Below, piece by piece: positions 57,236 through 63,376 of a stretch of DNA of 64,000 nucleotides (position 1 is its first letter; every line of letters begins with the position of its first letter). The notes beneath the pieces are model-generated. The model did not search any database, was not told where the DNA came from, and was given only the letters and a program-made list of their open reading frames with translations. A program made the position numbers and the translations under genes. The DNA is from Bacteroidetes bacterium GWF2_38_335 (GTDB lineage Bacteria; Bacteroidota; Bacteroidia; Bacteroidales; GWF2-38-335): positions 310,001-374,000 of the forward strand of contig MEOH01000022.1 of assembly GCA_001769535.1 (NCBI GenBank). Reading direction: 5' to 3'.

Positions 57236-57330
57236 GAAAATTGTAATTAAATTTGACTATTGTAGATATACACCCAAATTGGAATAAAAAGCGCAAGTTT
57301 GTGTGGATATATTTTGGTTGTACGCAAGCA
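57236..57330 (+). repeat. Cassette-associated repeat, copy A
   Basis: Begins GAAAATTGTAATTAAATTTG and continues with the TTGTAGATATACACCCAAAT block and TTGGAATAAAAAG. It ends near GATATATTTTGGTTGTACGC, 34 bases before the first beta-lactamase-like gene. Copies B (60341) and C (60918) share the same core. The surrounding interval 57065-57364 has no gene. Confidence 0.85.
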
Positions 57331-57364
57331 ATACAAACAGAACGCAAATTAGTAATAACAAATC

Positions 57365-59053
57365 ATGATGAAAAAGAGAAAAATAGGAACACTTGGATTA
57401 GGATTAATGATAATTGTTAGTCTTATACAGTGTAAGACTGCACAGGATAAAGAGATGAAATCACCGTTAGATGCCTACTTTGAACAGATGGAAGGAACAT
57501 TAAGTGAAGGCGATATGCCCGGATACTCTATTATAATTACAAAGAAGAATTCTGTTTTATACCAAAGGAATTTCGGTTTTGCTGATTTAGACAAAAAAAC
57601 GCCAATAACAGAAACTACAATTTTTGATATCGCCTCTGCTGGTAAACAATTTACAGGAATGGCAATCGCTCTTTTAGAAGAACAAGGTAAAATAAATATT
57701 AATGATAAAATCATTAAATATCTACCTGATTTATCGGAGGCTATGAGTGACATTACAGTATATCAACTTGTTCATCATACATCTGGAATCAGAGATTGGC
57801 CAACACTATTTGCATTGAAAGGATGGCAGCCCGAAAAGCCACTATCGTTGGATGATATTTATGACATTCTTAAAAAACAAGAGAGTTTAAATTTTACACC
57901 GGGCACCGAATTTTCTTATAGTAACTCAAATTACAATCTTTTGGCAAAAATAGTTGAAGCAGTTACAGATACATCTTTTGAAAGTTGGGTACATGATAAC
58001 ATATTTGTTCCTATAGGAATGGAGAATACTTACTTTGTTAAAGATAGCAACTTAGAAAAAAACATTGCTGCAAATTCGTATTATTTTGACGGAAACAAAT
58101 ACCTTCCTTTTGCTAATAATCTCAATGCCTATGGTTCTAGTTCGCTAATGAGCAGCACTGCTGATATGTTAAAATGGTTGACAAACTTTAATAGTAAGAT
58201 ATTGGGTGGCAATGATGCTTTTAATAAAATAACCCAAAAAGGGAATTTAAACAATAGCAAAACCATTGATTATGCTTATGGATTATACTTAACTGAAATA
58301 AAAGACAGGAAAGCTTATTATCATGATGGTGCTTGGGGCGGTTACCGCTCAGGAATTGTTTATTTTCCTGAAGAAAATGTTGGTGTGGTTATTTTAAGTA
58401 ATAATGGAACACTTAACCCCAAAAAAATAATATATGACATTGCTGATATCTTATTTGGCGATAAGACAGAGAAGAAAACAAAAGAAAGTGTGTCAACTGA
58501 GCAAGAAATAAACGATGAATTTTTCACTTTGTGTGCAGGTAAATACCAACAGGTTGACGACAAAAATTGCTATCTGACTTTTTTCAAAGAAGGTGATGAG
58601 TATTTTATAAACATGTATGACAAGAACTATAAATTATATGCCAAATCAGATTCAGTATTTTTTGTAAAAGAAGCTAAAGCTGAATTCGTATTTCATTTAA
58701 GAAATGGAAAGGTAAACAGCCATGCACTTGAACAAAATGGCAATAGCTATTTAGCATTGAGAGTTGAGGAAGATAAAAAAGAAGTAAATATCAATTACAA
58801 CAAGTTAACCGGGATTTTTTATTCAAGTGAACTTGATGTGAATTACGAGATTAAATATGAAAATGAGCAATTACTAATTCATTGTAGAGTATTCCCGGAA
58901 GATAAAATTCTTGAACACTCAGAAGACTTGTCATTTAAAAGCAATTCAGGTTTAATACAATCAATTTCATTTTTTGAAGAAAACGGAGCAATTACAAGTT
59001 TTGCAATAAATAATCCAAGAGCGAAAAAAATAAAATTTAAAAAGACGAATTAA
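57365..59053 (+). CDS. Beta-lactamase-fold serine hydrolase, lipoprotein
   Basis: A 562-residue class C beta-lactamase-related hydrolase. Lipoprotein signal IIVSLIQC (Cys about 24). Catalytic motifs: Ser and Lys in FDIASAGKQFTG, Tyr in FSYSNSNYNL, and HDGAWGGYRSG in the place of KTG. A C-terminal beta domain of ~180 residues (from about 385) resembles those of D-aminopeptidase/esterase relatives. The substrate could be a D-amino acid peptide or ester; true beta-lactam resistance is not implied. It is preceded by repeat copy A. Confidence 0.88.
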   Translation: MMKKRKIGTLGLGLMIIVSLIQCKTAQDKEMKSPLDAYFEQMEGTLSEGDMPGYSIIITKKNSVLYQRNFGFADLDKKTPITETTIFDIASAGKQFTGMAIALLEEQGKININDKIIKYLPDLSEAMSDITVYQLVHHTSGIRDWPTLFALKGWQPEKPLSLDDIYDILKKQESLNFTPGTEFSYSNSNYNLLAKIVEAVTDTSFESWVHDNIFVPIGMENTYFVKDSNLEKNIAANSYYFDGNKYLPFANNLNAYGSSSLMSSTADMLKWLTNFNSKILGGNDAFNKITQKGNLNNSKTIDYAYGLYLTEIKDRKAYYHDGAWGGYRSGIVYFPEENVGVVILSNNGTLNPKKIIYDIADILFGDKTEKKTKESVSTEQEINDEFFTLCAGKYQQVDDKNCYLTFFKEGDEYFINMYDKNYKLYAKSDSVFFVKEAKAEFVFHLRNGKVNSHALEQNGNSYLALRVEEDKKEVNINYNKLTGIFYSSELDVNYEIKYENEQLLIHCRVFPEDKILEHSEDLSFKSNSGLIQSISFFEENGAITSFAINNPRAKKIKFKKTN

Positions 59054-59102
59054 TGATATGAAAACATACCGCTGTCCGTTACACACTATTTAAAAAAAGA
59101 AT

Positions 59103-59720
59103 ATGCTAAAGTTTGTGGGAAAACAACTTCGAAAGCCAACAGGTTTTTTTGGTAAAATAATCTCGATACTTATGCAAAAAGGCAATAGTTCTATTTATAA
59201 TAGAATTATTTCAGAACTAGAAATAAATCAGAATGACAATATACTTGAAATTGGCTATGGTCCTGGTCTTGGAATAGAAAGAATATTGGCAAAATACGAT
59301 TGTTTTGTAACCGGGATTGATTTTTCCGAATTAATGTTTAAGGAAGCAACCAAAAGAAATAAAAAGTATATTGATTCTAAAATGGCTGTATTATATCTAG
59401 GAGATTTTTTAAGCATAAATATTAATTCGAATGAATTTGATAAAATTTTCTGCTTGAATGTCATCTATTTCTGGGATAAACTACATGAACCATTTGCAAA
59501 GATATATAGAGGTTTAAAAGATGGTGGTTTATTTTGTTTTTATATGGCTCATCAAGAAGATTTAAACAAACTGAAATTTACAAAAAATGATATTTTTAAT
59601 AAGTATTCTATAGAGCAGGTTGTTGAGAAATTAGAAATATCTGGATTTAAAGTTATAAATTATGAAATTGAAATTGAATATAGATTTGAAAGAGGATATT
59701 TTATAAAATGCAGAAAATAA
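59103..59720 (+). CDS. Class I SAM-dependent methyltransferase
   Basis: A 205-residue methyltransferase. Motif I is NILEIGYGPGLGIERIL (about 50-66), followed by VTGIDFSELMFKEATK for motif II, FDKIFCLNVIYFWD and GLKDGGLFCFYMAHQ. The substrate is not evident. It starts 49 bases after the serine hydrolase. Gene and codon usage are noticeably more A/T-rich than the housekeeping genes. Confidence 0.88.
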   Translation: MLKFVGKQLRKPTGFFGKIISILMQKGNSSIYNRIISELEINQNDNILEIGYGPGLGIERILAKYDCFVTGIDFSELMFKEATKRNKKYIDSKMAVLYLGDFLSININSNEFDKIFCLNVIYFWDKLHEPFAKIYRGLKDGGLFCFYMAHQEDLNKLKFTKNDIFNKYSIEQVVEKLEISGFKVINYEIEIEYRFERGYFIKCRK

Positions 59721-59976
59721 ACAATGTATAATAATTAAGCTTCGTGTGGTCGTGGAACGAAACCTAATATGAAGTCCCGAATGCTTTCGTGATTGCACGA
59801 AACCTTATGCCGGCGCAAGGAAAAGGTGCAGCGCACCATACTCTTTGTAGAAAATATCAAGAGGTCAGGATAAAGGTGCAGCGCACCGTGCTATTGGAAG
59901 TAGCGTTTTGAATGTGAGGTTGAGTTTGAGTGAGAAGAGTGTAGAGAGATGGAAAATGTTAAAACTGCATGGTATA
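59721..59976. other. Gene-free interval with short repeats
   Basis: Two perfect copies of the near-palindrome GGTGCAGCGCACC (59825-59837 and 59875-59887, exactly 50 bases apart) and a pair of direct repeats of the type TCGTG..CACGAAACC (59751-59806). No gene is visible. Confidence 0.7.
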
Positions 59977-60334
59977 TAATTAGGGCCTGCTGGTTAAGTC
60001 AAAAATTAATATTTGTCAAAGAAGGTTACGGTACGCTGTACCTTTTTTATTCACTGTAAAATTTTAACCTACAGAGGTTTTGGTGCTCTGCACCATATGA
60101 AAACACAATTGGTGCAGAGCACCAAGTCCTCTGTAGGATACAGAATAATATGTAAAAAATCGCCGCCCGGAATTCTCTTAGAAAGATTTTTTCTTTTGCG
60201 GCGGAAATGAAAACGAATCTTAATGCAAGGAAAAACGAAGAATTATTAATAAAACCTTGCATTTAATAGATGGTTTTAAGCATTTAACAGACAGAATTCA
60301 AAATATATAGCAGTTTATCAGCTGGCCCTAATTA
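59977..60334. mobile_element. 358-bp inverted-repeat element (MITE-like)
   Basis: Terminal inverted repeats TAATTAGGGCCTGCTG (59977-59992) and CAGCTGGCCCTAATTA (60319-60334) match at 15 of 16 positions. The interior has no gene, a GGTACGCTGTACC hairpin followed by T6 (60030-60048), and a long hairpin (60068-60136). The right end lies six bases from repeat copy B. Non-autonomous mobility is inferred from structure only. Confidence 0.55.
60068..60136. repeat. Long hairpin inside the MITE-like element
   Basis: Arms 60068-60096 and 60108-60136 are inverted repeats of ~29 bases with two or three mismatches. Each contains CCTACAGAGG and GGTGCTCTGCACC or its complement, with an 11-base loop. The GGTGC...GCACC core is shared with the palindromes at 59825 and 59875. 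Confidence 0.8.
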
Positions 60335-60340
60335 GTTTTT

Positions 60341-60419
60341 GAAAATATTAATTAAATTTGACTATTGTAGAAATAAGCCCTGATTGGAATAAAAAGAATG
60401 AGTTGGTGGGGGTATATTA
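60341..60419 (+). repeat. Cassette-associated repeat, copy B
   Basis: GAAAATATTAATTAAATTTG, then ACTATTGTAGAAATAAGCCC, TGATTGGAATAAAAAG and GGTATATTAAAG. Same block order as copies A and C. It ends 29 bases before the preferred start of the SF0329-like gene. Confidence 0.85.
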
Positions 60420-60448
60420 AAGCTGGGGGTAATATAAAGACAGCAATT

Positions 60449-60928
60449 ATGATTTGGAGTAAAATCAGAAAAGAATTACATGACAGACTTGCTGATAATT
60501 TAAAAAGTAGATTGAATTATCACATGACATCTTATAAAAACTCAACTGGATATATTGGTAGAGCGTGGATAACTTACGATGGAGTTGAAGTAATTAATTT
60601 CTCAAATCTTGAAACATGGAGCGAATTTAAAAGTTTATCAAATTTGACAGTTGGAACTAATTATTCGACACATTCTCCTGTTGACGAAAGTAAAAGAACC
60701 GAAGGATTATTAATGGAAAAAGGAGAGTTTTCGAAATATGATTTTGGTGAATCGGCATGGCAATTCATTAATCTTGACATAGAGAGTGCAATTGAAAGTG
60801 AGAATGCAATTCTCCGAGCGTTAGCCGTTTTGGATAGAAGAGTCGGAATAAAACGACTTGAAAAAATTGAAATAAAAGAAAAACATCCATTTGTTTTAAA
60901 TTTAATAAAATTGAGAAGAAAATATTAA
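60449..60928 (+). CDS. SF0329-like protein of unknown function
   Basis: A 159-residue protein from ATG 60449 (MIWSKIRKELHDRLADNLKS), chosen because related proteins begin near a WSK motif and because the 17 codons gained from an earlier ATG at 60398 lie in repeat copy B. The segment YIGRAWITYDGVEVINFSNL matches the GRAWITxDG pattern of the SF0329 group, and LRALAVLDRRVGIKRL is the conserved C-terminal helix. Biochemical role unknown. Its stop codon lies inside repeat copy C, so gene plus repeat form a ~575-bp unit. Confidence 0.75.
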   Translation: MIWSKIRKELHDRLADNLKSRLNYHMTSYKNSTGYIGRAWITYDGVEVINFSNLETWSEFKSLSNLTVGTNYSTHSPVDESKRTEGLLMEKGEFSKYDFGESAWQFINLDIESAIESENAILRALAVLDRRVGIKRLEKIEIKEKHPFVLNLIKLRRKY

Positions 60929-61010
60929 ATTTGACGATTGTAGATATACACCCAAATTGGAATAAAAAGAGTGAGTTTAGGCAAATATATTCTGGTTAGC
61001 GGCAAGTAAA
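60918..61010 (+). repeat. Cassette-associated repeat, copy C
   Basis: It overlaps the stop of the SF0329-like gene. GAAAATATTAAATTTGACG is followed by a block identical to copy A over more than 30 bases (TTGTAGATATACACCCAAAT, TGGAATAAAAAG). It ends near GGTTAGCGGCAAG, 16 bases before the next serine hydrolase gene. Confidence 0.88.
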
Positions 61011-61026
61011 TAAATGAAATCTATAC

Positions 61027-62133
61027 ATGAAACAGAAACTAAAATCCACCCTGTTTGTAATATTTATTCTTACCTCAATCGCTTTTAAACTGAGTGCTCA
61101 AAGTAATCTGAATTTTCAAGCAGATATAGACAATCAAATAAACGAGAACATACCTGGTGTATTGGTTACAGTTATTTGCAAAGAAAAACAAATCGATTGG
61201 AGCGGAGCATCGGGATATGCCGATAAAAATAATAAAGTCCAGCTCCTTCCTGACCAAACTTTTAGAATAGCAAGTGTTACAAAAACCTTTGTGGCCTGTG
61301 CCATATTGCGACTTTGGGAAGATAAAAAACTGAAACTTGATGACCCCATCATAAAATACATCAGTAAAGAACATTCCGAAATATTGAAAAAAGGGGGGTA
61401 CAACCCTGAGGAAATTACCATTCTTCATTTATTGACTCACTCGAGCGGAATGGCTGAGCATACCCAAACCGAGAAATATAAAATTGAATACATTAAAACG
61501 AATCACATTTGGACCCGTACCGAACAATTGTTGGAATTAATAAACCAAACAAAACCGGTAGGAGCAATAGGCGGGCAGTTTTCGTATTCCGACTCGGGGT
61601 ATTTATTATTGGGCGAAATCATTGAAAAGATAACCCAAAAATCTATGGGAGAAGCCATGGAAGAGCTACTGAATCTTAAGAAACTTGGCTTAAAATCCAT
61701 TCATATTGAAGATGAAAAGGGAGAGTTTGATTCGGTTAGAATTCACCAATATATTGACGGCGAAGACACCTATTATATAAACCCGACACTTGATTTGTAC
61801 GGAGGAGGAGGTTTATTATCTTCTACCCGCGATTTAACCTTGTTCTATAAGAATTTGTTTGAAAATAAAGTATTTCGCAAAAAATCTACATTAAAAAGAA
61901 TGCTTAAACCCATTAATTATTCCACCATGCAGGCACTTGATTATAGAATGGGAATTTGGGAGACAGAAATAGAAGGATTGAAAGCCTATACACACACAGG
62001 ATTTTGGGGAACACAAGTTATATATATCCCCAAAATAGAAACTATTATAGCAGCAAATTATAGCCAAAGGTGGACAAAGCAGGCATTTGCCCCAATTATT
62101 CCAATCATAGTAAAGCAACTTTTGGAAAAATAG
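61027..62133 (+). CDS. Beta-lactamase-fold serine hydrolase, exported
   Basis: A 368-residue class C beta-lactamase-related protein with a signal peptide (1-24, ending KLSAQ). Catalytic motifs: Ser-Lys in RIASVTKTFVACA, Tyr in FSYSDSGYLLLGE, and HTGFWGTQV replacing KTG. Its N-terminal VLVTVICKEKQIDWSGASGY is typical of the serine hydrolase group. Last 82 bases (62051-62132) recur almost exactly downstream of the FRG gene. It is preceded by repeat copy C. Confidence 0.88.
   Translation: MKQKLKSTLFVIFILTSIAFKLSAQSNLNFQADIDNQINENIPGVLVTVICKEKQIDWSGASGYADKNNKVQLLPDQTFRIASVTKTFVACAILRLWEDKKLKLDDPIIKYISKEHSEILKKGGYNPEEITILHLLTHSSGMAEHTQTEKYKIEYIKTNHIWTRTEQLLELINQTKPVGAIGGQFSYSDSGYLLLGEIIEKITQKSMGEAMEELLNLKKLGLKSIHIEDEKGEFDSVRIHQYIDGEDTYYINPTLDLYGGGGLLSSTRDLTLFYKNLFENKVFRKKSTLKRMLKPINYSTMQALDYRMGIWETEIEGLKAYTHTGFWGTQVIYIPKIETIIAANYSQRWTKQAFAPIIPIIVKQLLEK
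62051..62132 (+). repeat. 82-bp direct repeat, left copy
   Basis: The 3' end of the serine hydrolase gene, starting CAGCAAATTATAGCCAAAGG. It matches 62938-63019 at 81 of 82 positions (offset 887). Confidence 0.97.
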
Positions 62134-62188
62134 CCCATAGAGAATAAAATATTTGAAAATAATTAATACCTGTATCTTAATGTTTTCT

Positions 62189-62196: not shown

Positions 62197-62243
62197 AATA
62201 AATTAGTAGACAAGCCAACGATGTGCACAATAATGAAAGAAAC

Positions 62244-62927
62244 ATGCGATCGATAGAAATAAAAAATTTTAATGATTTAAATCAAGTTTTAGATAAATAT
62301 TTGAAATCTAACATCTGGATTTTTAGAGGACAGGCTAATTTAGATTGGGAATTAATACCTAAAGCATTTAGGTTACCATATTCAAAATACAATGATGAAA
62401 AACTGTTAAATTCATGGAAAAATAGGGCTGTAGAATATTTATCGAATGGATTAAAAAATGATTGGGAATGGTTATTTTTAGCACAACACCATGGTGTGCC
62501 TACTAGATTATTAGATTGGACTATTAATCCTTTAATTGCATGTTTCTTCGCCTCAATTTCAAACCAAGATAATGATGGAGCTATTTATGCTGTTCATTAT
62601 TGTGAGAGGATCAAAATAAATTCTTCAAAACCATTTGACTTAAAAGGAATATCAATAGTAATTCCAAATTCCATTACAAAAAGAATAACTAACCAAGGTG
62701 GCGTTTTTACAATCCATCCAAATAATTCACCTCAAATAATAGAATCAACTTTTGAAACAATTGAACAAATAATTATTCCATTACATATAAAAAAAGATAT
62801 TCTATTTAAACTCAACCAATACAACATTAGTTACTCTTCAATATTCCCTGATTTAGATGGGCTAGGAAAACATCTTTGTTGGCATATTGAAAATATGGAT
62901 TATTGGGATTCTAAATATAATTTATAA
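62244..62927 (+). CDS. FRG-domain protein
   Basis: A 227-residue protein from ATG 62244 (MRSIEIKNFNDLNQVL); a GTG at 62223 would add seven residues. The FRG domain is clear: WIFRGQANLDWELIPKAF at about 28-45, then LAQHHGVPTRLLDWTINPLI about 77-96. FRG domains are named for that Phe-Arg-Gly motif and occur in anti-phage and toxin-type systems, but their biochemistry is poorly known. It is the only gene between two copies of an 82-bp repeat and has an A/T-rich composition. Confidence 0.88.
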   Translation: MRSIEIKNFNDLNQVLDKYLKSNIWIFRGQANLDWELIPKAFRLPYSKYNDEKLLNSWKNRAVEYLSNGLKNDWEWLFLAQHHGVPTRLLDWTINPLIACFFASISNQDNDGAIYAVHYCERIKINSSKPFDLKGISIVIPNSITKRITNQGGVFTIHPNNSPQIIESTFETIEQIIIPLHIKKDILFKLNQYNISYSSIFPDLDGLGKHLCWHIENMDYWDSKYNL

Positions 62928-62937
62928 TACTGTGTAA

Positions 62938-63019
62938 CAGCAAATTATAACCAAAGGTGGACAAAGCAGGCATTTGCCCCAATTATTCCAATCATAGTAA
63001 AGCAACTTTTGGAAAAATA
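62938..63019 (+). repeat. 82-bp direct repeat, right copy
   Basis: Duplicate of the 3' end of the upstream serine hydrolase gene, 10 bases after the FRG stop. It has one substitution (TATAACC for TATAGCC) and is not attached to any coding frame here. The next bases, CCTGCCGCTAAGCG, hold the reverse complement of the TTAGCGGC found before the hydrolase gene. Confidence 0.97.
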
Positions 63020-63070
63020 ACCTGCCGCTAAGCGATTTTTAGACCAAACAAAACAAACACACAAATCATA

Positions 63071-63376
63071 ATGTCCAAATATACTGTAGTATTAGATAAA
63101 GAACCATAATCATTAACCGGAATCACTCATTAAACTAACGGAATCATATATTACAAATACGGAATAGCATATTACATTAGCGGAGTGTATTATTACAATA
63201 ACGGAATCACAAATTACAAGAGCGGAATCATAATTTACAGAAGCGGACTTATATATTACAATGACGGAAAAAGAAAGTATACAAACGGAATCGCGTCTTA
63301 CATAATCGGAATAGCTTTTTGCAGTAACGGAAACACATCTTGCAGTAACGGGAAGACATTTTACAAGGAAATATAG
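63071..63376 (+). pseudogene. Heptapeptide-repeat gene with two in-frame stops
   Basis: From ATG 63071 the frame reads MSKYTVVLDKEP, then TAA (63107), then SLTGITH, TAA (63131), and then continues in the same frame through eleven further repeats of the type YxxGIxx to TAG 63376. The second TAA stands where other units have TAC or TAT for Tyr. A GTG at 63185 opens an intact 63-residue frame, so a shorter product is possible. No known function. Confidence 0.6.
63118..63369. repeat. 21-bp tandem repeat, 12 units without indels
   Basis: CGG recurs at 63118, 63139, 63160, 63181, 63202, 63223, 63244, 63265, 63286, 63307, 63328 and 63349, exactly every 21 bases. The consensus is roughly CGGAATCAnAnnTTACAAnAn, and many positions have diverged while the period has not. 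One strand reads as heptapeptides with YxxG; the other gives Arg/Cys-rich heptads. Confidence 0.93.

Follow-up and report, generated by a model that had tools for sequence, protein, structure and literature searches.

Copies of an attI-type repeat in Bacteroidetes bacterium GWF2_38_335 as probable recombination sites of an integron-like gene-capture system

Described integrons and the three repeats of the window

The closest described systems to the one considered here are the chromosomal integrons with their integrase IntI, their attI site and the attC sites of their cassettes. As in these integrons, a recombinase gene in our system adjoins a site with a GTT core and the cassettes form arrays in one direction; likewise, the R'' arm of the attC-like sites is complementary to the start of the site's own cassette, and most of these sites are stabler as bottom strand. 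It was the gain of the additional domain (I2 helix), according to one description, that let integron integrases use single-stranded DNA (PMC7790495); this insertion is reported to be not fully conserved in an integron-like subgroup, yet essential for integron function (PMC8138268). In Treponema integrons, transcription of intI reportedly runs toward attI, the same way as the cassettes (PMC3607928). For a class 1 integron, excision of attI1-aadB-attI1 at over 97% was reported from tests (PMC12901181). Since Bacteroidota have already been named among the integron-bearing phyla (PMC8618304, PMC9668308, PMC2426708), specialists may know members of the system presented below; none of the titles and opening abstract lines listed in our searches of open-access literature describes such a system.

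We propose that a repeat family in the genome of Bacteroidetes bacterium GWF2_38_335 consists of attI-type recombination sites of an integron-like gene-capture system that is apparently common in Bacteroidota, a reading we consider likely. In the window, that is, the whole analysed stretch of 64 kb, repeat finding grouped three 86-nt copies into a single family; they lie at 57246, 60351 and 60924, and identity to the first copy is 73% for the second and 83% for the third. With copy A as query against the 5.27-Mb genome, copy C was recovered at E 5.5e-19 and copy B at E 1.1e-15, so that the three repeats claimed in the first-pass annotation are real by both approaches, and the block order given for them is present in the copies. 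All three lie on the forward strand: A at 57236-57317 (core G at 57317), B at 60341-60422 (core reads GCT, 60422) and C at 60918-60995 (core G at 60995). Repeat family, genome search and profile agree on each of them. The common part stops at the GTT core, a few bases before the ends set originally. To the left of copy A, a weaker likeness to some copies extends to ~57207. The start codons behind A, B and C stand at 57365, probably 60449, and 61027; the second is preferred because the open reading frame called from 60398 matches Pfam only from residue 20 on.

Open reading frames and Pfam matches outline the genes behind the copies, all on the forward strand. In the cargo of A (57318-59053), a PF00144 serine hydrolase gene (57365-59053) follows a short leader, and no attC was recognised. 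Next comes a methyltransferase gene (59103-59720), possibly a second cassette behind A, with GTTA at 59077. Between B and C there is, as claimed earlier, a single gene, which belongs to the SF0329 family (PF25753; 60449-60928) and has its stop codon inside C. Behind C follow a second PF00144 serine hydrolase gene (61027-62133) and an FRG-domain gene (62223-62927). The arrangement of B, the SF0329 gene and C resembles the deltaattI-type cassettes of mobile integrons, where a gene lies between two attI-type sites; unlike those cassettes of class 1 and 2 integrons, the copies here are dispersed over the genome and are known from sequence.

Several other features of the window are recorded here in their own right. 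Adjoining copy B on its left is a MITE-like stretch (59977-60334) with 21-nt inverted ends that are 86% complementary; a 621-bp query holding it gave 54 genome matches, many of them to that part. An element of ~98 bp lies directly past the stop codons of three different genes (window 59720-59817; C22:2686-2783; C23:83789-83864), its further copies being 86% and 75% identical and all of them close to attI-type copies. The FRG-domain gene is flanked by two 88-bp direct copies (62048-62135 and 62935-63022), 97% identical, of the serine hydrolase gene's 3' end. At 63118-63373 there are 21-bp tandem repeats beginning CGGAAT, in 10 overlapping copies.

Single-strand folding of the repeat, proposed in the first-pass annotation as a check, did not emerge: 12 folds of six copies were no more stable than shuffles. 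A search of Rfam gave only miRNA models below threshold, on an unrelated hairpin. We also considered a coding remnant with an apparently conserved frame (LTIVDIxPNWNKK) and rejected it, as the minority letters are even over codon positions (34, 23 and 23; seven copies) and stops interrupt the frame.

Copies across the genome and the boundary at the core

Besides A, B and C, the genome holds six more clear copies and three weaker ones at other places, so that the family counts nine clear and three weaker members. A consensus search led to eight places, and the ninth copy (J) came from comparison of the surroundings. The weaker copies were found by R1, a sequence-only profile of the nine clear copies, on contigs C13 (copy K; E 0.001), C27 (0.008) and C1 (0.02). 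The first-pass annotation had named two outcomes as contrary to its cassette-like layout, namely that the genome holds no other copies or that the copies always precede homologous genes. Neither was found: further copies exist and the genes behind them are not all homologous, although hydrolases of PF00144 stand behind both A and C (27% identity between the two over 341 columns). Copy D heads an AAA_21 and RloB pair matching PADLOC AbiL, copy F heads CTD10 and DUF2326 genes matching PDC-M68, and copy G a DUF4209 protein matching PDC-S39. The first gene behind F starts 655 bp off, with a weak attC site in the gap (E 2e-4, attC model). The proteins behind E, H and J have no family match, and behind the weak C1 copy no gene start was seen within ~900 bp. 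None of the copies A to J adjoins a recombinase; in all, about a dozen attI-type copies stand in this genome without an adjacent recombinase, nearly all heading different genes. As contig ends are 0.4-10 kb away from A-C, D/H, E/J and F, the copies may form fewer loci.

At the DNA level, the repeat had no match in 59 genomes of relatives (0/59), in viral contigs (two patterns) or in phages; 353 plasmids yielded one 26-base chance match alone and the genome contigs five chance matches. A multicopy sequence confined at the DNA level to one genome could be a small MITE-like transposable element inserted beside genes. We consider this highly improbable, since all nine clear copies point at the gene behind them in one orientation, no terminal inverted repeat was seen in the attI-type repeat, and related sites occur at recombinase genes.

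These related sites, which fit the attI-type reading, became visible with profiles. R1 matched 2/296 genomes of the phylum, namely this genome and G228. R2, a profile of the nine clear copies, the three weak copies and the G228 site, whose E-values for the latter four are not independent, matched 39/247 genomes of the order at E 0.01, this genome included; some weak R2 matches are chance, for example that in G001, which lies inside a gene. G428 alone had 14 R2 matches at this threshold. At the sites of G025 and G228 and at several of G428, the DNA just to the left codes for the C-terminus of a tyrosine recombinase reading toward the site.

Homology between the copies stops at the GTT core, and the alignments place the start of the cargo there. 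We compared 123 copy pairs, each within this genome or within G428. Left of the core, 57 pairs were similar, and in 48 of them the similarity ends at most 5 bases from it; the remaining nine, from this genome, end 14-30 bases short of it. Right of the core only 5/123 were similar: in one, B reaches into C's own cargo, two share 21-22 bases of cassette start, and two longer ones come from G428. By eye, copy H and G428 copy k have ~30 bases of cassette start in common and different left halves.

The extent of similarity to the left bears on the history of the copies. In G428 it reaches up to ~600 bp from the core, the limit searched, and runs across remnants of the recombinase. By eye, copies c, e, h and m (L152, L154, L156 and L158) have one internal deletion of the recombinase in common, and they differ in cargo. 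Copies A to J might accordingly be the remains of separate complete platforms after loss of the recombinase, and not the result of attI spreading alone. This history, which would fall within our best explanation, is a real possibility, though we would not call it probable: in this genome the left similarity ends ~110 bp from the core with no recombinase remnant recognised, and the common deletion in G428 argues for copying after the loss.

The recombinase and its link to the site

One intact close member of the recombinase family was found in this genome. It is encoded on contig C17, has 374 aa, and is followed by a site of the same layout and then by a putative AraC-type gene. This site was detected by neither R1 nor R2 and is therefore divergent from those of A to J. 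The protein carries the domains PF00589 and PF13495, and its best match of known structure by sequence is IntI4 (2a3v; 133 bits), with Xer-type proteins next. Between the aligned blocks it has 29 residues, compared with 71 in IntI4, and the motif interval is 58-59 residues in 51/51 relatives in which both motifs could be measured (51/63). Due to this short interval, we conclude that the IntI additional domain is absent. In this respect the system differs from chromosomal integrons and also from those of Treponema, whose recombinases are reported as IntI and with which it shares the reading of the recombinase gene toward the attI-type site. As the additional domain was tested and is absent, we speak of an integron-like system and not of a proven integron. 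A search for canonical IntI gave nothing above the TIGR02249 cut-off in the genome. The predicted structure of the recombinase reached pTM 0.49, and the fold search lends rough support at best.

Recombinases like that of C17 occur, at E 1e-45 or better, in 139/393 genomes of the order and 117/395 of the phylum; the surroundings were inspected at 63 loci with at least 42% identity, and the remaining similar recombinases need not all be of the same kind. At L186, L187 and L177, recombinases 34-39% identical to that of C17 are followed by the apparent start of an IS91-type transposase, with no attI by eye.

At the loci of at least 42% identity, the position of the recombinase gene, judged from sequence, is next to an attI-type site. 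A relaxed core motif lies within 220 bp downstream at 50/57 of these loci, compared with 3/56 upstream, 3/57 antisense and a mean of 4.3 (maximum 10) after shuffling. The strict motif TAWNCNAGTTR was present within 400 bp at 25/52 loci downstream, 0/52 upstream and 2/52 antisense; among distant recombinases (up to 39% identity) it occurred at 1/20, in G428 (C46), a true member by eye. To the eye, many of the recombinase-linked sites carry an inverted repeat on the left side of the core, whose letters are specific to each lineage, and among the folds of seven such sites that of G374 alone clearly beats shuffles. Multicopy attI, a difference from chromosomal integrons, was seen in this genome and in G428. 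It is not the rule, as a second copy within 16 kb of other recombinases was found in 1/20 regions only (G418), three matches of 16-21 bases in G733 at E 0.041 being taken as chance, and strict motifs past the first site were not enriched in the 20 regions (3 sense, 5 antisense).

The consensus TAnnTTTG is the -7 element of Bacteroidota promoters. It is found in 6/8 clear copies that have the left half, and near the stop codon in 18/57 recombinase matches (shuffled mean 4.1, maximum 9). Of the two roles suggested in the first-pass annotation, the recombination site with its cassette layout has held up, and the promoter-bearing leader is weakly supported by these counts. Together with the uniform orientation of the clear copies toward their genes, the box would suit a repeat that serves accessory genes only as a common promoter or regulatory leader, has spread by copying and plays no role in recombination. 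Such a leader is very unlikely in our view, because sites of this kind go together with recombinase genes, homology stops at GTT and attC-bearing cassettes follow D/H, F and G.

Two Chryseobacterium plasmids extend the attI-type arrangement to annotated replicons. Their recombinases, named 'site-specific tyrosine recombinase/integron integrase' or 'site-specific integrase', are 46% identical to ours; a core motif starts 97 bp past the stop codon and co-directional genes lie behind it. The records stop at naming the recombinase; neither attI nor cassettes appear among their listed features. With the attC covariance model R3 (see below), one plasmid yielded four attC sites and the other yielded none. 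In a Chryseobacterium plasmid, the cassette region also contains a group II intron reverse transcriptase gene on the opposite strand (L277:14750-16066). Altogether 70 plasmid records had a similar recombinase, 49 of them from Acinetobacter, for which the alignment covers just 66% of the query among the matches listed.

Folded cassette ends and the proposed capture system

In complete loci a tyrosine recombinase gene reads into the site, after which co-directional cassettes follow, at least seven of them in G331. Each cassette begins at the GTT core, and many end in a folded site of ~130 nt whose R'' complements the first bases of the same cassette. In 45 cassettes, the complement of the first 12 bases recurs at the 3' end with a mean of 2.2 mismatches vs 3.33 for the starts of other cassettes, the starts used for G417 and G394 being doubtful by eye; it is followed by long inner arms and then by the next GTT. 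A chain search, in which the score of 16 and the limit of two mismatches were our choices, gave 60 attC sites from 29/58 starts tested, many of which lie in short regions, with up to seven sites in the longest chain (G331). For first cassettes in regions of more than 5 kb, a site was found in 14/19, compared with 16/558 random GTTR starts. Bottom-strand folds of the 60 sites had a median z of -5.5 (z < -3 in 58/60), and the bottom strand was stabler than the top in 55/60.

For an alignment (A6), 42/60 sites were chosen (length 123-138, regions L256-L275) and the third G418 site was removed; in the resulting 41 sites, compensatory changes occur in 17/17 consensus pairs. R3, built from these sites, was applied to loci outside the building set. 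In this genome it detected ten sites at E 2e-4 or better (three at D/H, three at C17, two at copy K, one each at G and F), and elsewhere 25 sites at E 0.1 in 13/22 other loci; every site is on the same strand as the attI or recombinase of its locus (10/10 and 25/25). The R'' test on 13 starts of this genome gave one mismatch for D alone; H, C17, C and B had two, a value also reached by controls, and the other eight had three or four. The chain search found sites for D, H and C17 only. In the window, R3 found no attC up to E 5. For the cassette behind C, positions 63021-63032 of the forward strand may be a decayed R''; this stretch has two mismatches to the complement of the cassette start, which is within the range of controls, and is missed by the attC model. 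Putative attC sites, with R''/R' complementarity and a folded bottom strand, thus occur in cassettes that follow recombinases and at D, H, F, G and K, and not in the window, and the cassettes form co-directional arrays.

Two details distinguish these sites from those of chromosomal integrons. Their length is nearly constant at ~130 nt (128-134 nt in 54/60 chained sites), and R' reads GTTR and is often not RRRY; of the R boxes RYYYAAC / GTTRRRY, GTTR and AAC are kept and the rest often differs, with GTTAGCG being common. G054 has an attC-bearing cassette flanked by two attI-type copies, and cargo of G054 is 51% identical over 897 columns to a protein of ~900 aa encoded in the array that follows copy G.

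Based on these arrangements, we propose that the recombinase would join the GTT of attI to the GTT of the folded site of a cassette, whereby cassettes would enter behind attI and be exchangeable. Copies A, B and C would then represent three heads in a row, whose cassettes would have lost a recognisable attC, leaving the layout attI-gene-attI. Whether Bacteroidota as a whole harbour a widespread and mostly unrecorded integron lineage, in which an Xer-length recombinase lacking the additional domain uses folded single-stranded attC for recombination and reads toward attI, and in which attI multiplies as the head of separate arrays, seems to us evenly balanced. If a folded attC is indeed used by a recombinase without this domain, the single-stranded-DNA step would be directly testable. 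A large pool of unannotated cassettes, including defence genes, would also be opened, and the system may be a means by which these bacteria collect defence and other accessory genes.
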